Below are positions 346 to 17,536 of a DNA stretch of 22,090 bases, in pieces. A program made the translations under genes and the position numbers. Positions within the stretch are counted from its first letter, which is position 1, and every line of letters starts with the position of its first letter. This stretch comes from a virus, in the IMG/VR virus record IMGVR_UViG_3300021963_000728, positions 1-22,090 of that record. One strand, written 5' to 3'. Below the pieces are notes generated by a model. That model saw only the letters and a program-made list of their open reading frames with translations, was not told where the DNA came from and made no database searches.

Positions 346-1458
346 TTATAGCTCCGCTGAGGCAATCCAATGACCATAAACATAAGCAGCAACAAAGTTA
401 GAGCCTACAGCAATATAAGCTCTTGACTCTCTATCTGAAGTTCTATCAAAAGTAATTGAACCAGTTGAAGATGAACCACTTCTTTCATAGTTCCAACTAC
501 CTGATGTTCCTGATGCAAGATAACCAGTTAAAGTTGGTGCAGTTCTCTTTGTTGAATACTGAATTGGAACAATTACATTTCCATTTCCTTCAGAAGAACC
601 AGAAAAATTAAAAGTTCCTATGGTTGTATTGGTTGCTGGTGCTGTTCCAATATCATAAGATTTCTCATAATACCTCTGACACAAAGCCAACTCAGTCCCA
701 TAAGGTCTGTAATCAAAGCTCGTTGCTGTTGAGCCTTTTTCTAGCTGGACTCCGGTGATGTAGAAGGTGGCCGAGGATGTACCAATCAAGTTTGCTTGTG
801 CCGATGTGTTTCTATAGTTGCCAGCTTGCCACGCGCCAGCGGTCGTGTTGTAGTTGCTACCAGAACCCAAGTCCCATTTAATGGTCATGTTCTCGCCATT
901 GGTCTTTAACCAAGTGCCGGAGGTGTCTCCGGGGATTGTCAGCGTTTTGTATTCCCATGTGTTTGCGGAGCTAATGGTGTACGTTGCAACATAGCTTCTA
1001 TCGACAGCAGAGTTTTGAATGTTTGCACAGAAAGTGCCGGTCATGCTTGAGTAAACCCAAAACGACAGAGTTACACTTGCGGCTCCAGCGGCACCCCAAC
1101 CTAAATCGGCTACATTCAAACCTTCGACACGTTGACCAACCCATGCTGTCTGCGTTGAAGATGACGAAGCGCCAGTGCCGACTGCAAATTTCAATGAGTT
1201 AATAAAACCAGCCGGTGCGGTTGATGACTGCTGTGTAGTACACCCTGTTGCAGATGAACCGAAATAGCCAGTAAATCTATCTACAGCAAAAAAAGCATTA
1301 CCGGCGGACACAGCCGTACTCGCCCCAGCATTACGCTGGTCAATCATCATCGCACCATTGATGATGCGGTTCTTGAAGCCAAAGCCAGTAGCCGCAGTGT
1401 TTTGCGTGGAGGAGTCGTTAAAGACAACCCCGTTTGTGCCGTTGATTGTGACTGCCAT
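346..1458 (-). CDS. Tail fibre / receptor-binding protein
   Basis: A 370-residue fibre protein. Residues 1-25 (MAVTINGTNGVVFNDSSTQN) form a short Gly/Thr/Asn opening like those of neighbouring fibre genes. It is followed by RIINGAMMIDQRNAG (about residues 31-45), a hallmark of many phage fibre proteins, then a beta-rich region (about 50-250) ending in FYITGVQLEKGSTATSFDYR. That last motif is typical of the jelly-roll carbohydrate-binding-like domain in phage fibres. The C-terminal 110 residues, from YGTELALCQRYYEKSY onward, are Ser/Gly/Tyr-rich and probably form the variable receptor-contacting tip. The start codon overlaps the stop of the S74 fibre gene by one base (TAATG), showing translational coupling. 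The exact ligand cannot be told from sequence. Confidence 0.8.
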   Translation of the reverse strand: MAVTINGTNGVVFNDSSTQNTAATGFGFKNRIINGAMMIDQRNAGASTAVSAGNAFFAVDRFTGYFGSSATGCTTQQSSTAPAGFINSLKFAVGTGASSSSTQTAWVGQRVEGLNVADLGWGAAGAASVTLSFWVYSSMTGTFCANIQNSAVDRSYVATYTISSANTWEYKTLTIPGDTSGTWLKTNGENMTIKWDLGSGSNYNTTAGAWQAGNYRNTSAQANLIGTSSATFYITGVQLEKGSTATSFDYRPYGTELALCQRYYEKSYDIGTAPATNTTIGTFNFSGSSEGNGNVIVPIQYSTKRTAPTLTGYLASGTSGSWNYERSGSSSTGSITFDRTSDRESRAYIAVGSNFVAAYVYGHWIASAEL

Positions 1459-2387
1459 TATTTTTTCTCCAGTGCTTCAATTCGTGCTGTCAGGGCTGTG
1501 ATGGTTGATGCTTGTGTATCTGTCAATGCTTTGAGTTCCTGTATTGCCGCTGTCAATGTGGCTACTAAAAATGATGTGTCTACGCTTTGAGGACGAATAT
1601 TTCCTTCTGCATCAACTGCGTCTTTTTCCCCATTAACAGCGTATGGGCAAACTTCAGCCAACTCATGGGCAATAAATCCTTCCCCCTCATTGCCATCTAA
1701 TATCCACTTGAAAGTCACTGGTTTTAACGCAGATACTTTAGCCAATGCGCCTGTCATTGGTTGCACATCTTCCTTTAATCTGTAATCGGATGATGTGTTG
1801 TATGCGGTTGTTGCCCCGTTGGACGATATCTTCCCAGCAAATGTGCCAGAACTGTAAAAGTCAATCATGTCGGTTGTACCGCCAGCCGTTGCATTTACTG
1901 CCATGCAATAGTTGGTTGAATTGACTTCTAATTTAAAAACTGTACCGCCATAAGCACTTGTTGTGTTAATCAGCAAGTTACCGCTGGTGTCGATACGCAC
2001 TTTTTCTGCGCTATTTATTCCAAACGATATATATTTAGACGCTGTTGTTTGAATAATAAAATCATTTGTAGACTGAAGCGTTTGCCATATTTGGGTATAT
2101 GCACTTCCATTTGCATAGAAGCCAATGTTGGATGAACCATCCAAAACAGCAAATGTACTACGCACATCCAATTTATAACTTGGCGAACTCGTACCAATCC
2201 CCACATTACCAGAGGAGTCAACCCTAACTCTTTCTGTGCTTGTGCCTGATGCAGTCGTGTAAATGGCTAATTGCCCATTGCTTGAACCGCTGTCAATACC
2301 AGCAATTTGAGCCGCTGTGGGCGTATTGTTTGAACCGAATGTCAGCGTATCTGACGATGTGTTGGGTATTGTGATTTTTATTGTCAT
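1458..2387 (-). CDS. Tail fibre with C-terminal peptidase S74 intramolecular chaperone
   Basis: A 309-residue fibre or tailspike-like protein. Residues 1-195 are beta-rich with repeated strand units (RVDSSGNVGIGTSSPSYKLDV, RIDTSGNLLINTTS) characteristic of triple-beta-helix fibre shafts. Residues about 198-309 are an S74 chaperone: SSDYRLKEDVQP with Ser200 and Lys205 as the expected self-cleavage dyad, GFIAHELAEV at 237-246, and a C-terminal coiled coil from about 275 (LEKK end). In this family, as in endosialidase and T5 L-shaped fibre, the chaperone drives trimerisation and then cuts itself off just before the serine. A mature shaft of about 199 residues is therefore expected. A one-base TAATG overlap links it to the next fibre gene. 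The S74 assignment is strong; the receptor is unknown. Confidence 0.88.
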   Translation of the reverse strand: MTIKITIPNTSSDTLTFGSNNTPTAAQIAGIDSGSSNGQLAIYTTASGTSTERVRVDSSGNVGIGTSSPSYKLDVRSTFAVLDGSSNIGFYANGSAYTQIWQTLQSTNDFIIQTTASKYISFGINSAEKVRIDTSGNLLINTTSAYGGTVFKLEVNSTNYCMAVNATAGGTTDMIDFYSSGTFAGKISSNGATTAYNTSSDYRLKEDVQPMTGALAKVSALKPVTFKWILDGNEGEGFIAHELAEVCPYAVNGEKDAVDAEGNIRPQSVDTSFLVATLTAAIQELKALTDTQASTITALTARIEALEKK

Positions 2388-6897: not shown

Positions 6898-7344
6898 CTA
6901 GTTAATCCAAGTTTCTTCTAACTTTTCAAAGCCGAATCTGTCATACGACAAATCGGGGCTATTGCTCATTTTACTGACACTAAAAAAATGTATGCGGTTA
7001 TCTTGCTTTAATTCTTCACATTGCTGTATGTAGGCATGAAGCAATCTATAAGCTGTTCTGCCACCTCGATGTTCCTCATCAACCCAAAAAGCAATTTCGC
7101 TAATTTGCGTAATGTCAGGATTCCAAATGTTTGGGTGCAAAGCGGCTATGACCATGCCAATGACATCTTCTTCTTTTGTGGCAAGCAGAATAAAACCCGC
7201 GCCAGCAAGGATGTTGCTTAACAATTTTTCTATGTGTTCTTGATTGCTGGAATCACGCAAGAATTGCGTTGGTGCGTTGTCACGATATGCTTTGAGCATT
7301 CGCACAATTTCATCTATATCAAATTTATTGGCGTGTCTTATCAT
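6898..7344 (-). CDS. GNAT-family N-acetyltransferase
   Basis: A 148-residue GCN5-related acetyltransferase. The fold order is visible: opening strand MIRHANKFDIDEIVRML, a beta strand FILLATKEEDVIGMVIAAL (about 51-69), motif A ISEIAFWVDEEHRGGRTAYR (81-100) with the acetyl-CoA pyrophosphate loop RGGRTA at 93-98, and motif B YDRFGFEK near the C-terminus. The usual Q/RxxGxG/A loop has Arg96 in the first Gly place, a variant seen in other RGGxAxxLL members. Such enzymes transfer acetyl from acetyl-CoA to amines; the substrate here is unknown. It sits between a minor tail gene and the tail tip with gaps of two to eight bases, so it is made late with virion proteins. It may modify a tail protein or a host target; that is inference. 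Confidence 0.85.
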   Translation of the reverse strand: MIRHANKFDIDEIVRMLKAYRDNAPTQFLRDSSNQEHIEKLLSNILAGAGFILLATKEEDVIGMVIAALHPNIWNPDITQISEIAFWVDEEHRGGRTAYRLLHAYIQQCEELKQDNRIHFFSVSKMSNSPDLSYDRFGFEKLEETWIN

Positions 7345-8638: not shown

Positions 8639-10750
8639 TTACCTCGAAACAGGCATACCGCGATTTGCTGATTGATACGATGCCCAAATGGTTTGCTTAT
8701 TCTTTGCCAAGAACTGAATGCCGCTTTGCGTGTCTATGGCACTCATGTTTGCAATGTATGGTCCATTGTAGTTAATGGTTTGCCCACCACCCATCGCACT
8801 TGCAAGTTGATTGTTTGGAATGATTGTCCCCGCAGTGCGTGGCACAAATAATTCTGGTCCTCGTTCACCAACAATAGAAACCTGACCTACTGGTGGTTGC
8901 CCACCATTGGCAAAACCGCTTGCCCTAACTGCACCAAAAGTTTCGCCACCAGAACTTAAATCTACGCTTGGCGAACCAAAACCAAAAATATTTCCTAACC
9001 CACGCATCATGTTCATTGCGCTTGCTTTAGCTTGAATAACCATCAAGTCCATAATGACACTGCGTGTGAAATCTCCAAAATTAAATTTGCCTGTTCTTAC
9101 AAATTGTTCAACAGCGTCTTCCATACTACCCATTAAAGACACAAACCCACGCCTACCCACTTCAAATTGATTTGGTAAGTTTTGCATGTATTCATCAAAA
9201 CCTTTTTTCACGCCTTGCGTCATTGTGCCTTCTGTTTCTTTGCGAATTTTCATTAATTGGTCTTTTGCTAGCTCAATAGAACGCTGGCGCAATTCGTTGT
9301 TGCGTTCTAATGCTATGGCTTCATCTTCTGCTGTTATTTTTTGTTCATTGCGCAACATCTTTATTTCATATTCTTTTTCAGCAAATAATTGCCTTATTTG
9401 CAAGATTTTTTGCGCATAATCTATTTCATATTCTTTCAAATGTTTATTGTCTTTATTCAGCAAAAAAATTTCTTTTTCAAAATCTAATTGCTTGCCCAAT
9501 TGTATTTGGCTATATTGCAAAGACAATGCCATTTCATCTAATAACTTTTGGCGGTCTTCTTCTATTTGCAATTGGTCGCGCACAGTCATCATTTCTTTGA
9601 TAGACAACTGCAACCGTTTTTCTGCGGCTGTTTCGTTATCTTTCATTATGTTTTCTGTGTAGCGTCTGCGTTCTTCCAAAATGCGTTTAGCTTCGGCTTC
9701 TGCGGCTTTTGCTTTTGTATCTACACCAACAATTGTTTCTCGTATAGGCGCACTTTTATCTTTGAGCAATCTAGGGTCATCAAACCCCGCACCTCGTGAA
9801 CCAATTTTTTCGCCTTTTAAAATCTTGTCAAATTCTGTTTGCTGGTTTCTAAGTTCGGCAAGTCGCCTATTAGTGTCTTCATCTAATTTTTTTAATTCTG
9901 CTGACCCAGCGTTTGATTCGCCATAGGTTTGCATGATGAGTGAATAGCCAGCAATTTTTTCTAACAATATGGCAACGCTTTGCATCGCCTTGTATGCGCT
10001 GTTTATATTGCTTGCCAAAAAATTAAACGCATTGCCAAGCATTTCAATTTTGGGAAATGTTTGGTCAGTAATTTGATTATTGATTGCTTTTAAACTTGGA
10101 CCAAGTGCCGTAACTAACAGCATTTGTAATTTTTTTATTATGTTTTCTAAATTGCCCCAAGTTTCTGCGCCAGCTTTGACGGCTTCAATCTGTTCGCGTG
10201 TCAAGTCTGTGGTCTTGCTCATCTCTTGAGCAAATTTGTCAAACGCTACACCTTTTGCCGCTTTGGAAAAGAATTCCATTGCTTTGGCATTGCGGCTAAC
10301 TGCATCATCCATTTGCTCAAGACCAGCAAGCACTTTGCCAAGTAGCTGTTCTTGCGTCATTGAGCCAATGTCTTTTAACGACACGCCAACTGACTTGAAT
10401 GCTTTTTGTGCTTCAAATGAACCGCTTGCCGCAGTGTCAATAAATTTTGTAAACGCTGACAGCATCACCCCAGCTTTGTCAGCTTCGCCACCAGCATTTT
10501 GTAAAGCTGAACGCAATTTAACAACCGTATCAATTGCTACATCATTGGCTTCGGCAACATCGGCAATATCATCGGCAAATTTAATAGCCGCCACACTCAT
10601 AGCCGCCAAAGCAGTCGCGCCTATTTGCGCAACACTGCCAATCTTGCTGACAAAGGCATCTAATTTTTTACCAGCGTTTTCTATGCCAGCGACAAATTCG
10701 GCTGTATTCAACCCAAGGACAACGCCTAAACGACCGACATTATTTGCCAT
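8639..10750 (-). CDS. Tape measure protein
   Basis: A 703-residue tail length determinant. The opening NNVGRLGVVLGLNTAEFVAG and the following Lys/Ala-rich helix are typical of tape measures. Residues about 40-60 and 205-270 are hydrophobic helices. Residues about 285-510 are a long charged helical region rich in Glu, Lys, Arg and Gln, consistent with coiled coil. MEDAVEQFVRTGKFNFGDFT (543-562) matches the lambda-type tape measure C-terminal motif, and VGERGPELFVPRTAGTIIPN (627-646) is the conserved terminal motif. From the known scaling of about 0.15 nm per residue, a tail near 105 nm is predicted. Its start overlaps the end of the chaperone extension by 11 bases, as in lambda T/H. Confidence 0.93.
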   Translation of the reverse strand: MANNVGRLGVVLGLNTAEFVAGIENAGKKLDAFVSKIGSVAQIGATALAAMSVAAIKFADDIADVAEANDVAIDTVVKLRSALQNAGGEADKAGVMLSAFTKFIDTAASGSFEAQKAFKSVGVSLKDIGSMTQEQLLGKVLAGLEQMDDAVSRNAKAMEFFSKAAKGVAFDKFAQEMSKTTDLTREQIEAVKAGAETWGNLENIIKKLQMLLVTALGPSLKAINNQITDQTFPKIEMLGNAFNFLASNINSAYKAMQSVAILLEKIAGYSLIMQTYGESNAGSAELKKLDEDTNRRLAELRNQQTEFDKILKGEKIGSRGAGFDDPRLLKDKSAPIRETIVGVDTKAKAAEAEAKRILEERRRYTENIMKDNETAAEKRLQLSIKEMMTVRDQLQIEEDRQKLLDEMALSLQYSQIQLGKQLDFEKEIFLLNKDNKHLKEYEIDYAQKILQIRQLFAEKEYEIKMLRNEQKITAEDEAIALERNNELRQRSIELAKDQLMKIRKETEGTMTQGVKKGFDEYMQNLPNQFEVGRRGFVSLMGSMEDAVEQFVRTGKFNFGDFTRSVIMDLMVIQAKASAMNMMRGLGNIFGFGSPSVDLSSGGETFGAVRASGFANGGQPPVGQVSIVGERGPELFVPRTAGTIIPNNQLASAMGGGQTINYNGPYIANMSAIDTQSGIQFLAKNKQTIWASYQSANRGMPVSR

Positions 10751-11104: not shown

Positions 11105-11584
11105 TCAGTTTCCCTTTGTTTCCTTGTATGTCGGGCTGATAGCTTCGGCAATCTTCTCAACCAATTGCATCTGCACCGCCATTGGGAATTCGGCTTCAAT
11201 TTCCTCATAGGTTAAGTCATCCAGCGTTGCGCCCTCTTGCTCAGGCACAAGTAACTTAACAAACTCAGTTATCTTAATTTCGACTTGCACTTTTTGCCGT
11301 GCCGCTTCTTTTAACGACCGACCTTCAATCAGCACATCGTCATCGGTAAAGGTAAAGCCAGCGTCTTGGTCTTTCAGCGCAAGCAAGGGTTCGGTCATCT
11401 GCTTGTATGCCTCTGCCACCTTTGCTTCGTCAGGTTCGTTTATGCGTTTGTAGATTTCATCGGATTCGTGAACATACGGAATCCTGACCCTAAAGGTATG
11501 ACCGCCTAATTCAAATCTGCGGGTAAATATTTTTTCTCTGTGTTGTTGGTACTTTGCGCCAAGGGCGTCTGCAAATCGTGTCAT
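11105..11584 (-). CDS. Tail assembly chaperone (G-like)
   Basis: A 159-residue acidic protein located immediately upstream of the T-like frame and tape measure, the place of lambda gpG. Segments are FTRRFELGGHTFRVRIPYV, a helical DEAKVAEAYKQMTEPLLAL, and an acidic C-terminal half containing LTYEEIEAEFPMAVQMQLVE. It is not a virion protein in related systems: G and GT coat the tape measure during tail assembly and are then lost. The stop codon TGA directly follows the G GGA AAC slippery site, so a minority of ribosomes should continue into the extension. The family is inferred from context and the frameshift rather than from strong sequence motifs. Confidence 0.82.
   Translation of the reverse strand: MTRFADALGAKYQQHREKIFTRRFELGGHTFRVRIPYVHESDEIYKRINEPDEAKVAEAYKQMTEPLLALKDQDAGFTFTDDDVLIEGRSLKEAARQKVQVEIKITEFVKLLVPEQEGATLDDLTYEEIEAEFPMAVQMQLVEKIAEAISPTYKETKGN
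11108..11114 (-). promoter_or_regulatory. -1 programmed ribosomal frameshift site (G GGA AAC)
   Basis: Reading the chaperone gene in frame gives AAG GGA AAC TGA, so the heptamer G GGA AAC fits the X XXY YYZ rule (X=G, Y=A, Z=C). It differs by one base from lambda's G GGA AAG. Slipping back one base continues as CTG ATT GGC TCA TTG into the 118-codon frame without a stop. Three bases after the heptamer lies a hairpin with stem TTGGCT/AGCCAA. Confidence 0.88.
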
Positions 11585-11592
11585 GTGTTTTC

Positions 11593-12144
11593 CTATCTGT
11601 ATCTTGATTTGTAATTGTCTATCCTGTACGCAATCCTTGTTGCCAATTTGTCAAGCACGGTTGGACCCGCTGATTCTAATGCTGTGCGCATATACGGGTG
11701 TGCTGGGTTTCTTGCCGAACCAAATTCTTGCGCTATTGCTCGCGCATCGTAAGGAAAACCAGTAGACAGCGCAAACGCTTTAAATTTCTTGGCGCGTTCG
11801 GTAGAACTCAAATTTTGGTTTTCTTCGTAGAATTTCTTTTTGAGTTTTTTCGAGAACGCTTTGGTAGTTACCAAGGCAATTATGTTGTCGCCTTGCGTTA
11901 CATATTTGGAACGCCTGTCCCGTCTACTAGGTCGCCTTGCTTCAATTTGTAAAGTTCTTGCCAATGCCGTTGTGTCTTTTGGCGCAAACTCTCTTGCAAG
12001 GTTCAGCGTGGGTTTCATTGCCTCACGCATGGCGGGTATAAGTATTTTGCTGTTTGCTTTTTTGTCGCCAATTTCTCTTGCAATGTCATCAAATGTTTGC
12101 AGTAGGGTGTCTAAGCCTTCCACTTTCCATGCGACTTTTGCCAT
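11593..12144 (-). CDS. HK97 gp10-like tail completion / neck protein
   Basis: A 183-residue basic protein with the layout of the HK97 gp10 family. It opens MAKVAWKVEGLDTLLQTFDD with an amphipathic helix, then IPAMREAMKPTLNLAREFAP (ending in the AP before KDTTALARTLQ, equivalent to the family's APvdTGxLrxS), a strand DNIIALVTTK, and the diagnostic ending AIAQEFGSARNPAHPYMRTA, where Y/AxxxEfGt...aHPFmrpA is conserved. Members sit at the head-tail interface or cap the tail. It is longer than the usual 110-150 residues because of an inserted Lys-rich helix (FSKKLKKKFYEENQNLSSTE). Unusually it lies downstream of the tail tube genes. The start is one base after the previous stop. Confidence 0.8.
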   Translation of the reverse strand: MAKVAWKVEGLDTLLQTFDDIAREIGDKKANSKILIPAMREAMKPTLNLAREFAPKDTTALARTLQIEARRPSRRDRRSKYVTQGDNIIALVTTKAFSKKLKKKFYEENQNLSSTERAKKFKAFALSTGFPYDARAIAQEFGSARNPAHPYMRTALESAGPTVLDKLATRIAYRIDNYKSRYR

Positions 12145-12387: not shown

Positions 12388-12591
12388 TTATTCCTGTGGG
12401 TCAGGCGGTGGTGCGCTTTGCGCTGGGTTGTATTTGGCAAGCACTGACAAACACACAAACTCAACAGTGTCGGTTTTGGCTTTGGCAAGTGCGGTTGCCA
12501 CTTCACTGGCTTTCACCTCCAACCCCCGCGCTACTGCGTCAAGGGATTGGTGGGTGTTCGCCAACACTTCAACAGCGTCAGCGACTTTCAT
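12388..12591 (-). CDS. Hypothetical small tail-module protein (67 aa)
   Basis: A 67-residue protein, unrecognised. The sequence is Ala/Val-rich and likely helical (MKVADAVEVLANTHQSLDAV, then EVKASEVATALAKAK), followed by EFVCLSVLAKYNPAQ and a Pro-rich acidic end (SAPPPDPQE). Its ATG overlaps the stop of the second tail tube gene (TAATG), which argues that it is translated by coupling. The helical head with a flexible Pro tail would fit a small assembly adaptor, but nothing in the sequence proves this. Confidence 0.65.
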   Translation of the reverse strand: MKVADAVEVLANTHQSLDAVARGLEVKASEVATALAKAKTDTVEFVCLSVLAKYNPAQSAPPPDPQE

Positions 12592-13106
12592 TAGCTGTTA
12601 CTCCAACCGAACTGATTGCCGCGAGGATGGATGGTGAAAACACATTTGGCTTCCGCACCGGGTGCTGGGTCGATTTGGAACTGACTAGCACGACCATTAA
12701 AAGCATAAGCAACAGTGTTCGTTCCATCATAAGCCGCCACCACATAAGTGCGGTCAACAAGACCTGAATATGCGTCTGCACGAATCAACAGCAAACCAGC
12801 GTCTGACGGATTCCATGCCGCTGTGATTGTCAGTGATGTGGGCGCAGATTGTGTTGGGATTTTGTCGCTTTGGCGTGAACCCGCCACCATGAAATTGGCA
12901 ACTGCGTCATCTTGACCAAATGCGGGAACTGCTTCGATGGTTGCCAATGCAGTGCCAGCCGCGCCTGTACCGCCAGCGGATGTGCCAACGATGGTTGCGA
13001 CTTGCGCTGTCCAAACAGCCAAGTTTGCAGTGCTGAACGGGGATGCCGTTGTCTGCATCCACATTGATGCGACAAAGCCGGGTAGAACTTTTGAAGGTAA
13101 TGCCAT
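12591..13106 (-). CDS. Tail tube protein paralog 2
   Basis: A 171-residue protein clearly homologous to the gene just upstream. Both share xLPSKVLPGFVAS at the start and a C-terminal block from EAVPAFGQDDAVAN to the end; aligned by hand, about 22-23 of roughly 116 positions differ in that block. Shared landmarks are GSRQSDKIPTQSAPTS, TITAAWNPSD, LLLIRADAYSGL and PGAEAK. Residues about 15-56 are unrelated in detail and eight residues longer than in paralog 1. Position between tail terminator and chaperone/tape measure genes marks these as tail tube subunits. A GGAG ribosome binding site precedes the ATG. Both copies are intact, so both are probably made; whether they mix in one tube is unknown. 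Confidence 0.78.
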   Translation of the reverse strand: MALPSKVLPGFVASMWMQTTASPFSTANLAVWTAQVATIVGTSAGGTGAAGTALATIEAVPAFGQDDAVANFMVAGSRQSDKIPTQSAPTSLTITAAWNPSDAGLLLIRADAYSGLVDRTYVVAAYDGTNTVAYAFNGRASQFQIDPAPGAEAKCVFTIHPRGNQFGWSNS

Positions 13107-13121
13107 TTGAGTTTCTCCAGT

Positions 13122-13616
13122 TTAGGCTGTGTTTGTCCAGCCGTATTCGTTGCCACGGGGATGTAATGTAAAAACCGCCTTTGCCTCCGCACCGGGCTGG
13201 GCATCTATCTGCCACTGACTTGCACGGGCATTAAAGGCGTAATTGACCGTGCCTGTACCATCGGTAGCCTGTATAACATAAGTGCGGTCTATCAGCCCAG
13301 AATAGGCATCTGCGCGGATTAATAACAGCACTGTGTCGCTAGGATTCCATGCGGCAGTAATCGTCATGCTGGTGGGTGCGCTTTGGGTCGGGATTTTGTC
13401 CGATTGACGCGAACCAGCCACGCCGTAATTTGCAACTGCATCGTCTTGACCAAATGCGGGTACGGCTTCCACTTGCACCAAATTGCCGCTGATTGTGATG
13501 GCAGACACATTGCCAAGCGTACCCAATTGCGCGGTCGTCAATGGTGTGGGTGTTGCGCTTGGTTGCGCATATAGCGAGGCTACAAACCCCGGTAAGACTT
13601 TTGATGGTAAAGGCAT
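13122..13616 (-). CDS. Tail tube protein paralog 1
   Basis: A 164-residue predicted major tail protein, first of two tandem paralogs. It starts MPLPSKVLPGFVASLYAQPS, then a short Thr/Leu-rich variable stretch to about residue 48, then the conserved core VEAVPAFGQDDAVANYGVAG ... DRTYVIQATDGTG ... HPRGNEYGWTNTA. It is preceded by 33 non-coding bases, one of the larger gaps in the operon, with a GGGGG-type ribosome binding sequence about eight bases before the ATG. Tail tube proteins polymerise as hexameric rings around the tape measure to form the DNA channel. The family name is assigned from gene order and size, because I do not recognise a named Pfam motif. Confidence 0.78.
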   Translation of the reverse strand: MPLPSKVLPGFVASLYAQPSATPTPLTTAQLGTLGNVSAITISGNLVQVEAVPAFGQDDAVANYGVAGSRQSDKIPTQSAPTSMTITAAWNPSDTVLLLIRADAYSGLIDRTYVIQATDGTGTVNYAFNARASQWQIDAQPGAEAKAVFTLHPRGNEYGWTNTA

Positions 13617-13649
13617 TTTGTTTTCCCCCGATTCGTTGCTGTTCGTGTC

Positions 13650-15082: not shown

Positions 15083-16120
15083 TTATGTCCCGATGCTACG
15101 AACGCCAGCAAATGGGTCGCGCACGGTGCTGACCATGCGTTTTTCTGCGTACAGGGTGATAAAGCCGGGTGCGGTTTGTTCCATTGCTTGCACGGTCATT
15201 TCTTCCACATCCGCAATGGTCATAAACCTTGTCCAGTTGGCTAGGTAAATTGGGAAAGAACCAATCGTGCCAAACGCATCCAAGTACGGGTTAACTACAA
15301 CAGGGAAGCCAAAGATAAACACACCCGCGCCACCATCTTCTGTTCCTGTTTCAACCAATGAATAGCCGCCACCACCGTGGGCGTATTTGCGGACTTCTTG
15401 CAAAGCTGATGGACTCATCATCCATGCCGTGCCCGGCATTGCCCAATATTGACCCGGCAACGCATTAGCAATATCCACCAATGCTTCGTAATCTAACGCT
15501 GTGTGCGTATGCCCAACAGTGGCAATTGTGTGTATGCCGTTTGTAATGGCTGTGCCGCTTGTACCAAACGCAGAAACTGCACCAGCCGTGCCAAGGTAAT
15601 AATTCAAACCGCGCAGACCATTTGTTGCGCCTGTGGTTGTGGTGGTTGAGCCAGCTTGGTCATTGTTGGATGCCATTGACTGCGCTTCTAACTGGCTGAA
15701 TTCCATCATCAAATCTTCAACCAATTCTGCTTGCAAGCCATTTACATCAGACATCACTGCCGTGCGAATAGGTAACTGTGCAACCAATACGCGAGTAGGC
15801 AATTGCCAAATGCTCGTATCAATATTTGGTGAACCTGTGTTTGGTGTAAATGTGTAACCCCATGGGTTTGTAGACGATGCCGCATTACCTGTCTTGGCTA
15901 CAAATTGAACGCTTGAGCCGCTGACTTTGATTTGTCGCGCACCTTGACGAAATGGGTTTGCATAACGCAGTTTTGCAAATGCATCATCAAAATATGTCCG
16001 ACCACCAACATTGTCGCCCGAACCTGTAATAGCTGAGGCTTCGCGCAAATCAATTTTGATTCGGTCGCCAGTTTCTAGTGTTTGTTTAATGCCTGTCAGG
16101 ATTCGTTCGGTAATGCTCAT
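15083..16120 (-). CDS. Second HK97-fold major capsid paralog
   Basis: A 345-residue protein homologous to the capsid gene upstream. Hand alignment gives 20/33 identities for the block starting REASAI, 31/56 for DTSIWQLP to SNNDQA and 20/27 for the end starting QTAPGFIT. It has an almost complete HK97 fold (N-arm, E-loop region around WGYTFT, P-domain, A-domain, C-terminal strand FITLYAEKR) but lacks the roughly 105-residue coiled-coil N-terminus. The frame could extend to a TTG at 16183, but that would run through the terminator hairpin; the ATG at 16120 (MSITERILTG) is favoured, though its ribosome binding site (TTGGA) is weak. It may be a minor or vertex capsid subunit; that is inference. 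Confidence 0.88.
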   Translation of the reverse strand: MSITERILTGIKQTLETGDRIKIDLREASAITGSGDNVGGRTYFDDAFAKLRYANPFRQGARQIKVSGSSVQFVAKTGNAASSTNPWGYTFTPNTGSPNIDTSIWQLPTRVLVAQLPIRTAVMSDVNGLQAELVEDLMMEFSQLEAQSMASNNDQAGSTTTTTGATNGLRGLNYYLGTAGAVSAFGTSGTAITNGIHTIATVGHTHTALDYEALVDIANALPGQYWAMPGTAWMMSPSALQEVRKYAHGGGGYSLVETGTEDGGAGVFIFGFPVVVNPYLDAFGTIGSFPIYLANWTRFMTIADVEEMTVQAMEQTAPGFITLYAEKRMVSTVRDPFAGVRSIGT

Positions 16121-16143
16121 GATGATTCCAAAAAAGGTTGCTG

Positions 16144-16175
16144 AAAAAAGGGTGGAGGATTTTTGCCCCCCACCC
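16144..16175 (-). terminator. Intrinsic terminator between the two capsid genes
   Basis: On the minus strand GGGTGGGGG pairs with CCTCCACCC (nine pairs with one G-U), enclosing an 8-base loop GCAAAAAT, and is followed at once by six U. It lies 12 bases after the stop of the first capsid gene and before the ATG of the second. Partial termination here would lower expression of all downstream head-completion and tail genes relative to the first capsid gene. Confidence 0.85.
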
Positions 16176-16186
16176 AACGGCAACTA

Positions 16187-17536
16187 TCAGGTTGATGTGC
16201 CTGTCGAACGATAGCGAACGCCAGCGTTCGGGTCGCGCACAGATGTAGCCAAACGCTTTTCACCGTAGAAGGTGATGAAGCCGGGCGCAGTCTGGTCGTA
16301 TCTACGCATCACCATGTTCAGGCGGTCAACAATGGTGTGGAAGCGTGACCAATCAGCAAAGTACATGGGGTACAAGCTGTTTGTTCCAGCCGCGCCTGTG
16401 GTGGCTTGTGATGGGTTGTCCAAATACTTGTTCATCACAACATCAAAGCCCAGCATTTGACCAATGATGCCATCAGGGTTCAATGATTCCATTGAATTGA
16501 AGATGGGACGACCATTGGTGTCTTGCAGACCACGAATTGCTTGGGCAAGGATTGGGTTAACCATAAACTTGGCATTGCTTGTCCAATATTGTTGTGGCAA
16601 TGCGTACATCAGGTTAATCACATCTTTGTATGCAATATTATTTGCGCCAACAGTGTTAGCGTTGGTGGTCAATTGGTCATAAGTTGCCAAGCTGTGCAAG
16701 CCTGTGGTTGAGCCTGTGCCGCTTGTACCGAATGACGCTGTGCTGGAAGTGCCGCCCGCATAAGTAGCATTTGCACCAGCGTACTGGTCAAGACCACGCA
16801 AGCCGTTTGTGCCACCGTATGGGTTTGTGCCAGACTGTGCGGCTTGGTCATTGTTTTGGACCATTGACAGGGCTTCGCTTTGTGCAAATTCTGCCAACAT
16901 ATCGTCAACGACATTGCCTTCCAAGCCATCAATGTCGTCCAATGCCGCAGTACGGATTGGGAACTGCACATTCAAATCTTGCAAAACCAATTGCCAAATG
17001 CTTGTGTCTTCGGTTGTCGCCGCACCGTTATTTTGGATGGTGTAGCCCCAAGCCGCGCCAGCGTTGCCTGTTTTTACACGGAACTGATAGCTTGAACCAT
17101 CGGTGGCTACGGTGCGTGACAAACCGCGCATGGGGTTAGCCAAACGCAATGCAACAAACACAGGGTCGTAACCAGTGCGACCGCCTTGGTTGTTACCGCC
17201 AGCGGTCAACGCTGAGGCTTCGCGCAAGTACGCATCATATTGGCTTTCATCTTCAAAAATCTTGAGTTCTTTTTCTACACGGTTATTAGCCTTGTAAAAA
17301 GAATTCAATTGCTCACGCACTGCGCGGTTCACATCGCCACGAATGGTCTTGTGGGGTGCGCGGATAATTGCGGGTGCTTGTACGCTGGAAATTTTTGCTT
17401 CCAATGCAGAAATCTTTTCTGCCATTTCAGCTTTGACAGCTTCCACGGCTTCGGGGATTTTTGCTTCTACTGCTTGAACGGCTTCGACTTGCTTTGCTTC
17501 GATAGCGTCCAGTTTGTCAAGAATGACTTGTGACAT
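16187..17536 (-). CDS. Major capsid protein (HK97 fold)
   Basis: A 449-residue HK97-family capsid protein. Residues 1-55 form an EA-rich coiled coil (DKLDAIEAKQVEAVQAVEAK and on), the internal scaffold or delta domain normally removed by the prohead protease. Residues 60-105 are a basic linker (RGDVNRAVREQLNSFYKANN). The fold follows: REASALTAGGNNQGGRTGYD (105-124), E-loop region WGYTIQNNGAATTEDTSIWQ, a Gly/Ala/Thr-rich A-domain insert about 250-300, FMVNPILAQAIRGLQDTNGR and the end PGFITFYGEKRLATSVRDPN. The ribosome binding site is AAAGG, six bases before ATG. It follows the protease directly and is followed by a terminator, as is common for the most expressed phage gene. Confidence 0.94.
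   Translation of the reverse strand: MSQVILDKLDAIEAKQVEAVQAVEAKIPEAVEAVKAEMAEKISALEAKISSVQAPAIIRAPHKTIRGDVNRAVREQLNSFYKANNRVEKELKIFEDESQYDAYLREASALTAGGNNQGGRTGYDPVFVALRLANPMRGLSRTVATDGSSYQFRVKTGNAGAAWGYTIQNNGAATTEDTSIWQLVLQDLNVQFPIRTAALDDIDGLEGNVVDDMLAEFAQSEALSMVQNNDQAAQSGTNPYGGTNGLRGLDQYAGANATYAGGTSSTASFGTSGTGSTTGLHSLATYDQLTTNANTVGANNIAYKDVINLMYALPQQYWTSNAKFMVNPILAQAIRGLQDTNGRPIFNSMESLNPDGIIGQMLGFDVVMNKYLDNPSQATTGAAGTNSLYPMYFADWSRFHTIVDRLNMVMRRYDQTAPGFITFYGEKRLATSVRDPNAGVRYRSTGTST

Follow-up and report, generated by a model that had tools for sequence, protein, structure and literature searches.

Tail tubes of siphophages are described as stacks of a single protein, or of one protein together with a frameshift-extended form of it, as in SPP1. 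In the tube protein gpV of phage lambda, the β2-β3 loop (residues 50-78) makes the main inter-ring contact and the D61A/D62A mutation within it stops tube growth; the prolonged β1-β2 loop lies outside the tube and contacts the outer Ig domain (PMC8718954). SPP1 incorporates two major tail proteins, gp17.1 and gp17.1*, into one tail in a 3:1 ratio (PMC8718954). Our search of the open-access literature found no described phage with two tail-tube genes.

The structural operon of the window analyzed here, a 22,090-base record of an uncultured virus, runs on the minus strand, and within it two tail-tube-like genes, termed TTP1 and TTP2, lie in tandem. We regard it as probable that both products serve as subunits of a single non-contractile tail tube, with the second copy bearing a different outer loop. 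The features on which the analysis is based are the following:

13122-13616, minus strand: TTP1 (copy 1), predicted major tail tube protein of 164 aa (open reading frame, gpV fold, PHROG match)
12591-13106, minus strand: TTP2 (copy 2), predicted tail tube paralog of 171 aa (open reading frame, gpV fold, PHROG match, single clade)
13625-13629, minus strand: Shine-Dalgarno-like GGGGG ahead of TTP1
13115-13118, minus strand: Shine-Dalgarno-like GGAG ahead of TTP2
13470-13574, minus strand: class-specific segment of TTP1, residues 15-49, β1-β2 loop region
12936-13064, minus strand: class-specific segment of TTP2, residues 15-57, longer β1-β2 loop region
13380-13457, minus strand: putative inter-ring loop β2-β3 of TTP1, residues 54-79, unordered in the predicted monomer (pLDDT under 50), strong coupling with TTP2
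12843-12923, minus strand: putative inter-ring loop β2-β3 of TTP2, residues 62-88 (pLDDT under 50), invariant motif
13440-13445, minus strand: D58-D59 of TTP1, aligned with gpV D61-D62
12906-12911, minus strand: D66-D67 of TTP2, the same motif, aligned with gpV D61-D62
8639-10750, minus strand: tape measure protein, 703 aa

Both open reading frames extend as first annotated over 12591-13616 and are separated by 15 bases (13107-13121). Reading along the minus strand, genes for terminase, portal, protease, two capsid proteins and connectors precede TTP1 and TTP2, which are followed by two small genes, an HK97-gp10-like gene, a lambda G/GT-like pair, the tape measure and the tail-tip genes. The tube genes therefore occupy the place typical of a siphophage MTP gene, with connector genes upstream and chaperone and tape measure downstream. 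Shine-Dalgarno-like sites precede both copies in 65 of 65 representative genomes that carry the pair.

Several neighboring genes deserve a comment of their own. The slippery heptamer GGGAAAC (11108-11114, minus strand) lies just ahead of the stop codon of a 159-aa open reading frame, whose -1 frame is open into a 118-aa frame, an arrangement of the lambda G/GT-type programmed frameshift; similar sequences occur in relatives. The HK97-gp10/Neck1-like gene (11593-12144, minus strand, phrog_5) follows the tube genes instead of belonging to the preceding connector block. An acetyltransferase-like gene (6898-7344, minus strand, phrog_1249, E 5e-19) is situated among the tail-tip genes, and a tail-fibre-like protein (1458-2387, minus strand) ends in a C-terminus (DYRLKEDVQP...) that by eye resembles the S74-type intramolecular chaperone domain. 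The two HK97-type major capsid-like proteins are also encoded in tandem (16187-17536 and 15083-16183, minus strand); they are 44% identical and both match PHROG 10, major head protein. The capsid pair occurs together in 58 related loci, loci with a single tail-tube gene among them, and apparently also in the Methylophilaceae phage P19250A (KX815270, genes 5 and 6). Its members co-vary little, and a division of labour within the capsid is possible.

Sequence comparisons place both proteins among tail tube proteins at low scores. TTP1 matches the major tail protein families phrog_584 and phrog_158 weakly (E 5e-4 and 2e-3) and TTP2 matches phrog_158 (E 9e-6), while the scores against Pfam PF08813 (Phage_tail_3), 20.2 and 13.8 bits, fall under the gathering cut-off of 24.2, hence we do not file the proteins under this family. 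Searching the sequences of solved structures with TTP1 as the query yielded chance matches only. AlphaFold models were built from 47 (TTP1) and 39 (TTP2) family members and reached pLDDT values of 76 and 68, the latter a middling confidence that is poorest in the stacking loop. For both models Foldseek identified the lambda gpV tail tube as the top match (E 1e-5 for TTP1, 1e-4 for TTP2), with VIA Z scores against gpV of 11-12 for TTP1 and 13 for TTP2 (range 11.4-13.4, over 123-133 residues at 3.0-3.5 Å). Each model shows the β-sandwich flanked by a helix that characterizes the MTP fold, and the best PDB matches are tail tubes. Both copies also have the long mobile β2-β3 loop with an acidic pair found in siphophage MTPs: the motif P.FG.DD is present in 102 of 102 copies 1 and 101 of 102 copies 2, and in hhalign comparisons of both profiles the invariant DD falls on gpV D61-D62, at an E-value (0.16) that is not significant alone, in agreement with the structural match.

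Between the two proteins, the initial annotation had noted the shared start LPSKVLPGFVAS and about 80% identity over the C-terminal part, and both observations hold: 13 of the N-terminal 16 residues and 93 of 115 core residues (81%) are identical. It was equally right that the DNA is too different at third positions for a recent copy, as 66 of the 115 core codons differ there and 51 of the 93 identical core residues are specified by different codons. Estimates of dN between the copies, a calculation that it had proposed, are 0.17-0.18, and dS ranges from 1.9 (YN00) to 5.0 (NG86), i.e. silent sites are saturated. What did not survive is the description of the intervening segments (residues 15-48 and 15-56) as unrelated and swapped. 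Eleven of 33 aligned residues of the differing segment are identical, which beats 99% of shuffles, and the family profiles of the two classes align end to end across it. Between genomes, segment identity is 0.65 among copies 1 and 0.74 among copies 2, compared with 0.40 across the classes. Since the segments can be aligned, they are diverged, length-changed versions of the same element, kept within each class, and not replacements. An exchange of a recombination cassette was considered and discarded, as each class retains a segment of its own and the segment tree and the whole-protein tree both split the classes.

The class-specific segment aligns with the prolonged β1-β2 loop of gpV, and since that loop touches the outer Ig domain in lambda, the segment is probably exposed on the outside of the tube. 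Structure prediction and mapping of the segment, which the initial annotation had pointed to, gave gpV-like folds for the two monomers and a probable location on the outer β1-β2 loop, and the role in a different surface suggested there finds support as a difference on the outer face. An insert is tolerated at this region in a relative: a 238-aa second tube copy with about 66 extra residues between β1 and β2 (L058:6505-7221 and L157:3001-3717) has no Pfam match, lies nearer to copy 1 in the tree and was derived independently.

Our sample of related loci consists of the best 80 matches per query for several queries and is not random. It contains, with complete surroundings, 89 unique loci with two tube genes and 60 with one; about 60% have both copies and about 40% have copy 1 alone. 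Copy 1 occurs throughout the family, and copy 2 is either there in full or missing altogether: where it is missing, the small genes normally found downstream follow directly after copy 1. A maximum-likelihood tree built with 96 representatives separates two clades, each with an SH-aLRT of 100, one made up of copy 2 and the other of copy 1 together with the singles. This unrooted tree indicates that copy 2 goes back to one old duplication followed by loss, or to gain in one lineage. One contig of a Betaproteobacteria MAG bears the tube gene pair, which suggests that the host is probably betaproteobacterial. The median length of the tape measure is 789 aa in the 89 pair loci and 639 aa in 50 single-copy loci. 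We do not read this difference as reflecting a function of copy 2: pair status changes only three times on the tree, and the difference is therefore not independent evidence.

Comparison of close genomes yields dN/dS values of 0.074 (copy 1) and 0.066 (copy 2); in either differing segment the value is 0.11. Purifying selection on both copies is strong, which speaks against one copy being silent and also against the loop being under diversifying selection. The view that the pair are alternative products of recombination, one of them silent, which would have undermined the original interpretation, is disfavored by these values of about 0.07, by the Shine-Dalgarno-like sites ahead of both copies and by the absence of conversion tracts.

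The observation new to this work is that, within a genome, the two cores gain the same residue far above chance and by independent codons. If the copies had evolved independently since the old duplication, a copy 1 should be no closer to the copy 2 of its own genome than to any other. Among 34 representatives, the core identity of copy 1 to copy 2 is 0.825 within genomes and 0.775 between them, with an excess in 31 of 34 genomes (permutation P < 1e-4), and the differing segment of the same representatives shows no such excess (0.399 vs 0.404). On a tree of 62 representatives, phylogenetically independent contrasts at matching core columns give 68.5 changes in the same direction against 16.5 in the opposite one (34 of 44 columns), compared with 8.2 against 6.0 in the differing segment and 35.0 against 26.4 for mismatched, unrelated columns. 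As single-column sign tests are individually below significance, the columns were pooled, and because pooled columns share one tree these counts do not amount to a formal P value. Per variable column, the coupling peaks in the region of the inter-ring loop, in the strand that comes next and in the hairpin at 139-147, positions that are located by analogy with gpV, and is about zero in the helix and in the differing loop. In TTP1 numbering the coupled residues are 63, 65, 69, 77, 84, 85, 108, 113, 133, 140 and 148. As a control, the tandem capsid paralogs of the same genomes gave 56.4 same against 51.5 opposite (29.2 against 19.8 in better-conserved columns); being more diverged (about 39% identical), they are an imperfect control. 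Coupling of the cores is thus not general to tandem paralogs of these genomes.

Changes in step suggest one tail made of two kinds of subunit. TTP1 would be the tube protein that is always present, and TTP2 would stem from one old tandem duplication in a group of aquatic siphophages. Both would be translated from one operon; a single lambda G/GT-type chaperone and a single tape measure would recruit the one as well as the other, and either would stack through its β2-β3 loop, so that the tube contacts would have to stay compatible between the copies while one loop would be free to become class-specific. If both polymerize in one tube, the longer β1-β2 loop of TTP2 on the outside would give the finished tube two outer surfaces; the subunits could be mixed or alternate within hexamers, form blocks of rings or be confined to an end ring. 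This scheme builds on the observed fold, motif, gene order, selection and in-step core changes, and from these we infer recruitment and co-assembly. The proposal of the initial annotation that these are two tube subunits with a common ring core is supported by the same fold, stacking-loop motif, gene position and selection, and by the co-evolution. The absence of copy 2 from about 40% of the sampled relatives speaks against the reading of one tube with two subunits.

The coupling would also fit if both copies adapted to a shared partner (chaperone, tape measure or terminator) without touching each other, or if both adapted to the same conditions. Contractile injection systems have two tube proteins, one of which is an initiator at the tip. 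In line with the end-specific role that the initial annotation offered beside a different surface, one copy might form one or a few rings at the tip (as an initiator) or at the neck and the other the shaft, which we consider rather unlikely. Such a division would agree with the conserved class-specific loop and lengths and with the presence or absence of copy 2 as a unit, and coupling of the cores is expected here too, because an end ring also stacks on shaft rings. Against it, features known from the tip or the neck were not found in copy 2, some 40% of the sampled complete neighborhoods manage with copy 1 alone, and the coupling extends over much of the core instead of one element (two ring faces taken together).

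It is improbable that the copies are interchangeable in the same tube, serving dosage or redundancy, and that the loop difference is incidental. The core identity, the common operon and the Shine-Dalgarno-like sites ahead of both genes would suit this idea, as would the longer tape measures of pair phages, which probably mean longer tails and more subunits. However, the class-specific loop has been kept under purifying selection since the old duplication, and the tape-measure correlation comes down to the three changes on the tree.

Gene conversion (concerted evolution) could keep the cores alike with no functional coupling, as their greater similarity within genomes and a few short shared patches, the longest of 32 bases, might suggest. 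Codon and tract analysis makes this very improbable. Where the two copies changed jointly among close genomes (533 joint changes), they use the same codon in 39% only, and silent identity near joint changes (0.443) equals the background (0.452). The Ser/Ser pairs at residue 133 draw on different serine codon families in 27 of 39 cases. Exact matches shared by the two copies within a genome (maximum 32) do not exceed in length those between genomes (maximum 39), and the small excess at silent sites is mostly due to codon usage (0.043 of 0.064). For old conversion at deep nodes this rejection is less firm, as silent traces may be erased there. Finally, a role of copy 2 outside the virion, as a decoy or regulator, e.g. 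against defences such as DSR2 that sense the tail tube protein, a known defence trigger (PMC10981675), is hardly credible for a protein that retains the stacking loop, the DD motif and the coupling expected of a polymerizing subunit.

Returning to two subunits in one tube, we propose tentatively, and with somewhat less than even confidence, that widespread uncultured siphophages build heteromeric tubes (hexamers or ring blocks) from two co-evolving paralogs with two outer surfaces, copy 2 being gained or lost as a module. If true, the two surfaces could, for example, let the tail bind reversibly along the surface of the cell or lend it controlled flexibility. A paralog pair kept across a large environmental clade would allow the mixing of subunits in tail tubes to be tested, with the single-copy relatives as a comparison set and the residue coupling as an evolutionary handle on ring-to-ring contacts.

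Among known systems, the N-terminal MTP domain of lambda gpV shares with the TTPs the fold, the unordered β2-β3 stacking loop with DD, the prolonged β1-β2 loop and the position of the gene ahead of the G/GT-type frameshift chaperone and the tape measure, although the sequence similarity is below significance; gpV differs by its C-terminal Ig domain and by being one gene, where there are two here. SPP1 gp17.1/gp17.1* offers the parallel of a tube subunit in two forms that share their core and differ on the outside (PMC8718954). In SPP1, however, the second form arises by translational frameshift and adds a C-terminal FN3 domain to an identical core, whereas TTP1 and TTP2 are two separate, complete open reading frames with their own starts and stops, and it is an internal loop that differs. 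The Hcp2-Hcp3 heterohexamer of the Bacteroides fragilis T6SS (PDB 9vne, 9vnd), entries found among the structural matches of both models, has a related tube fold and two paralogs per ring; Hcp heterohexamers are discussed in PMC13323088. The co-variation described here is compatible with a putative heteromeric TTP ring, yet Hcp belongs to a contractile secretion system in which its rings carry effectors. The closest and sole isolate relative found, phage P19250A, has the same gene order and a tube protein (gene 10) that is 63% identical to TTP1, but it makes do with one tail tube gene.
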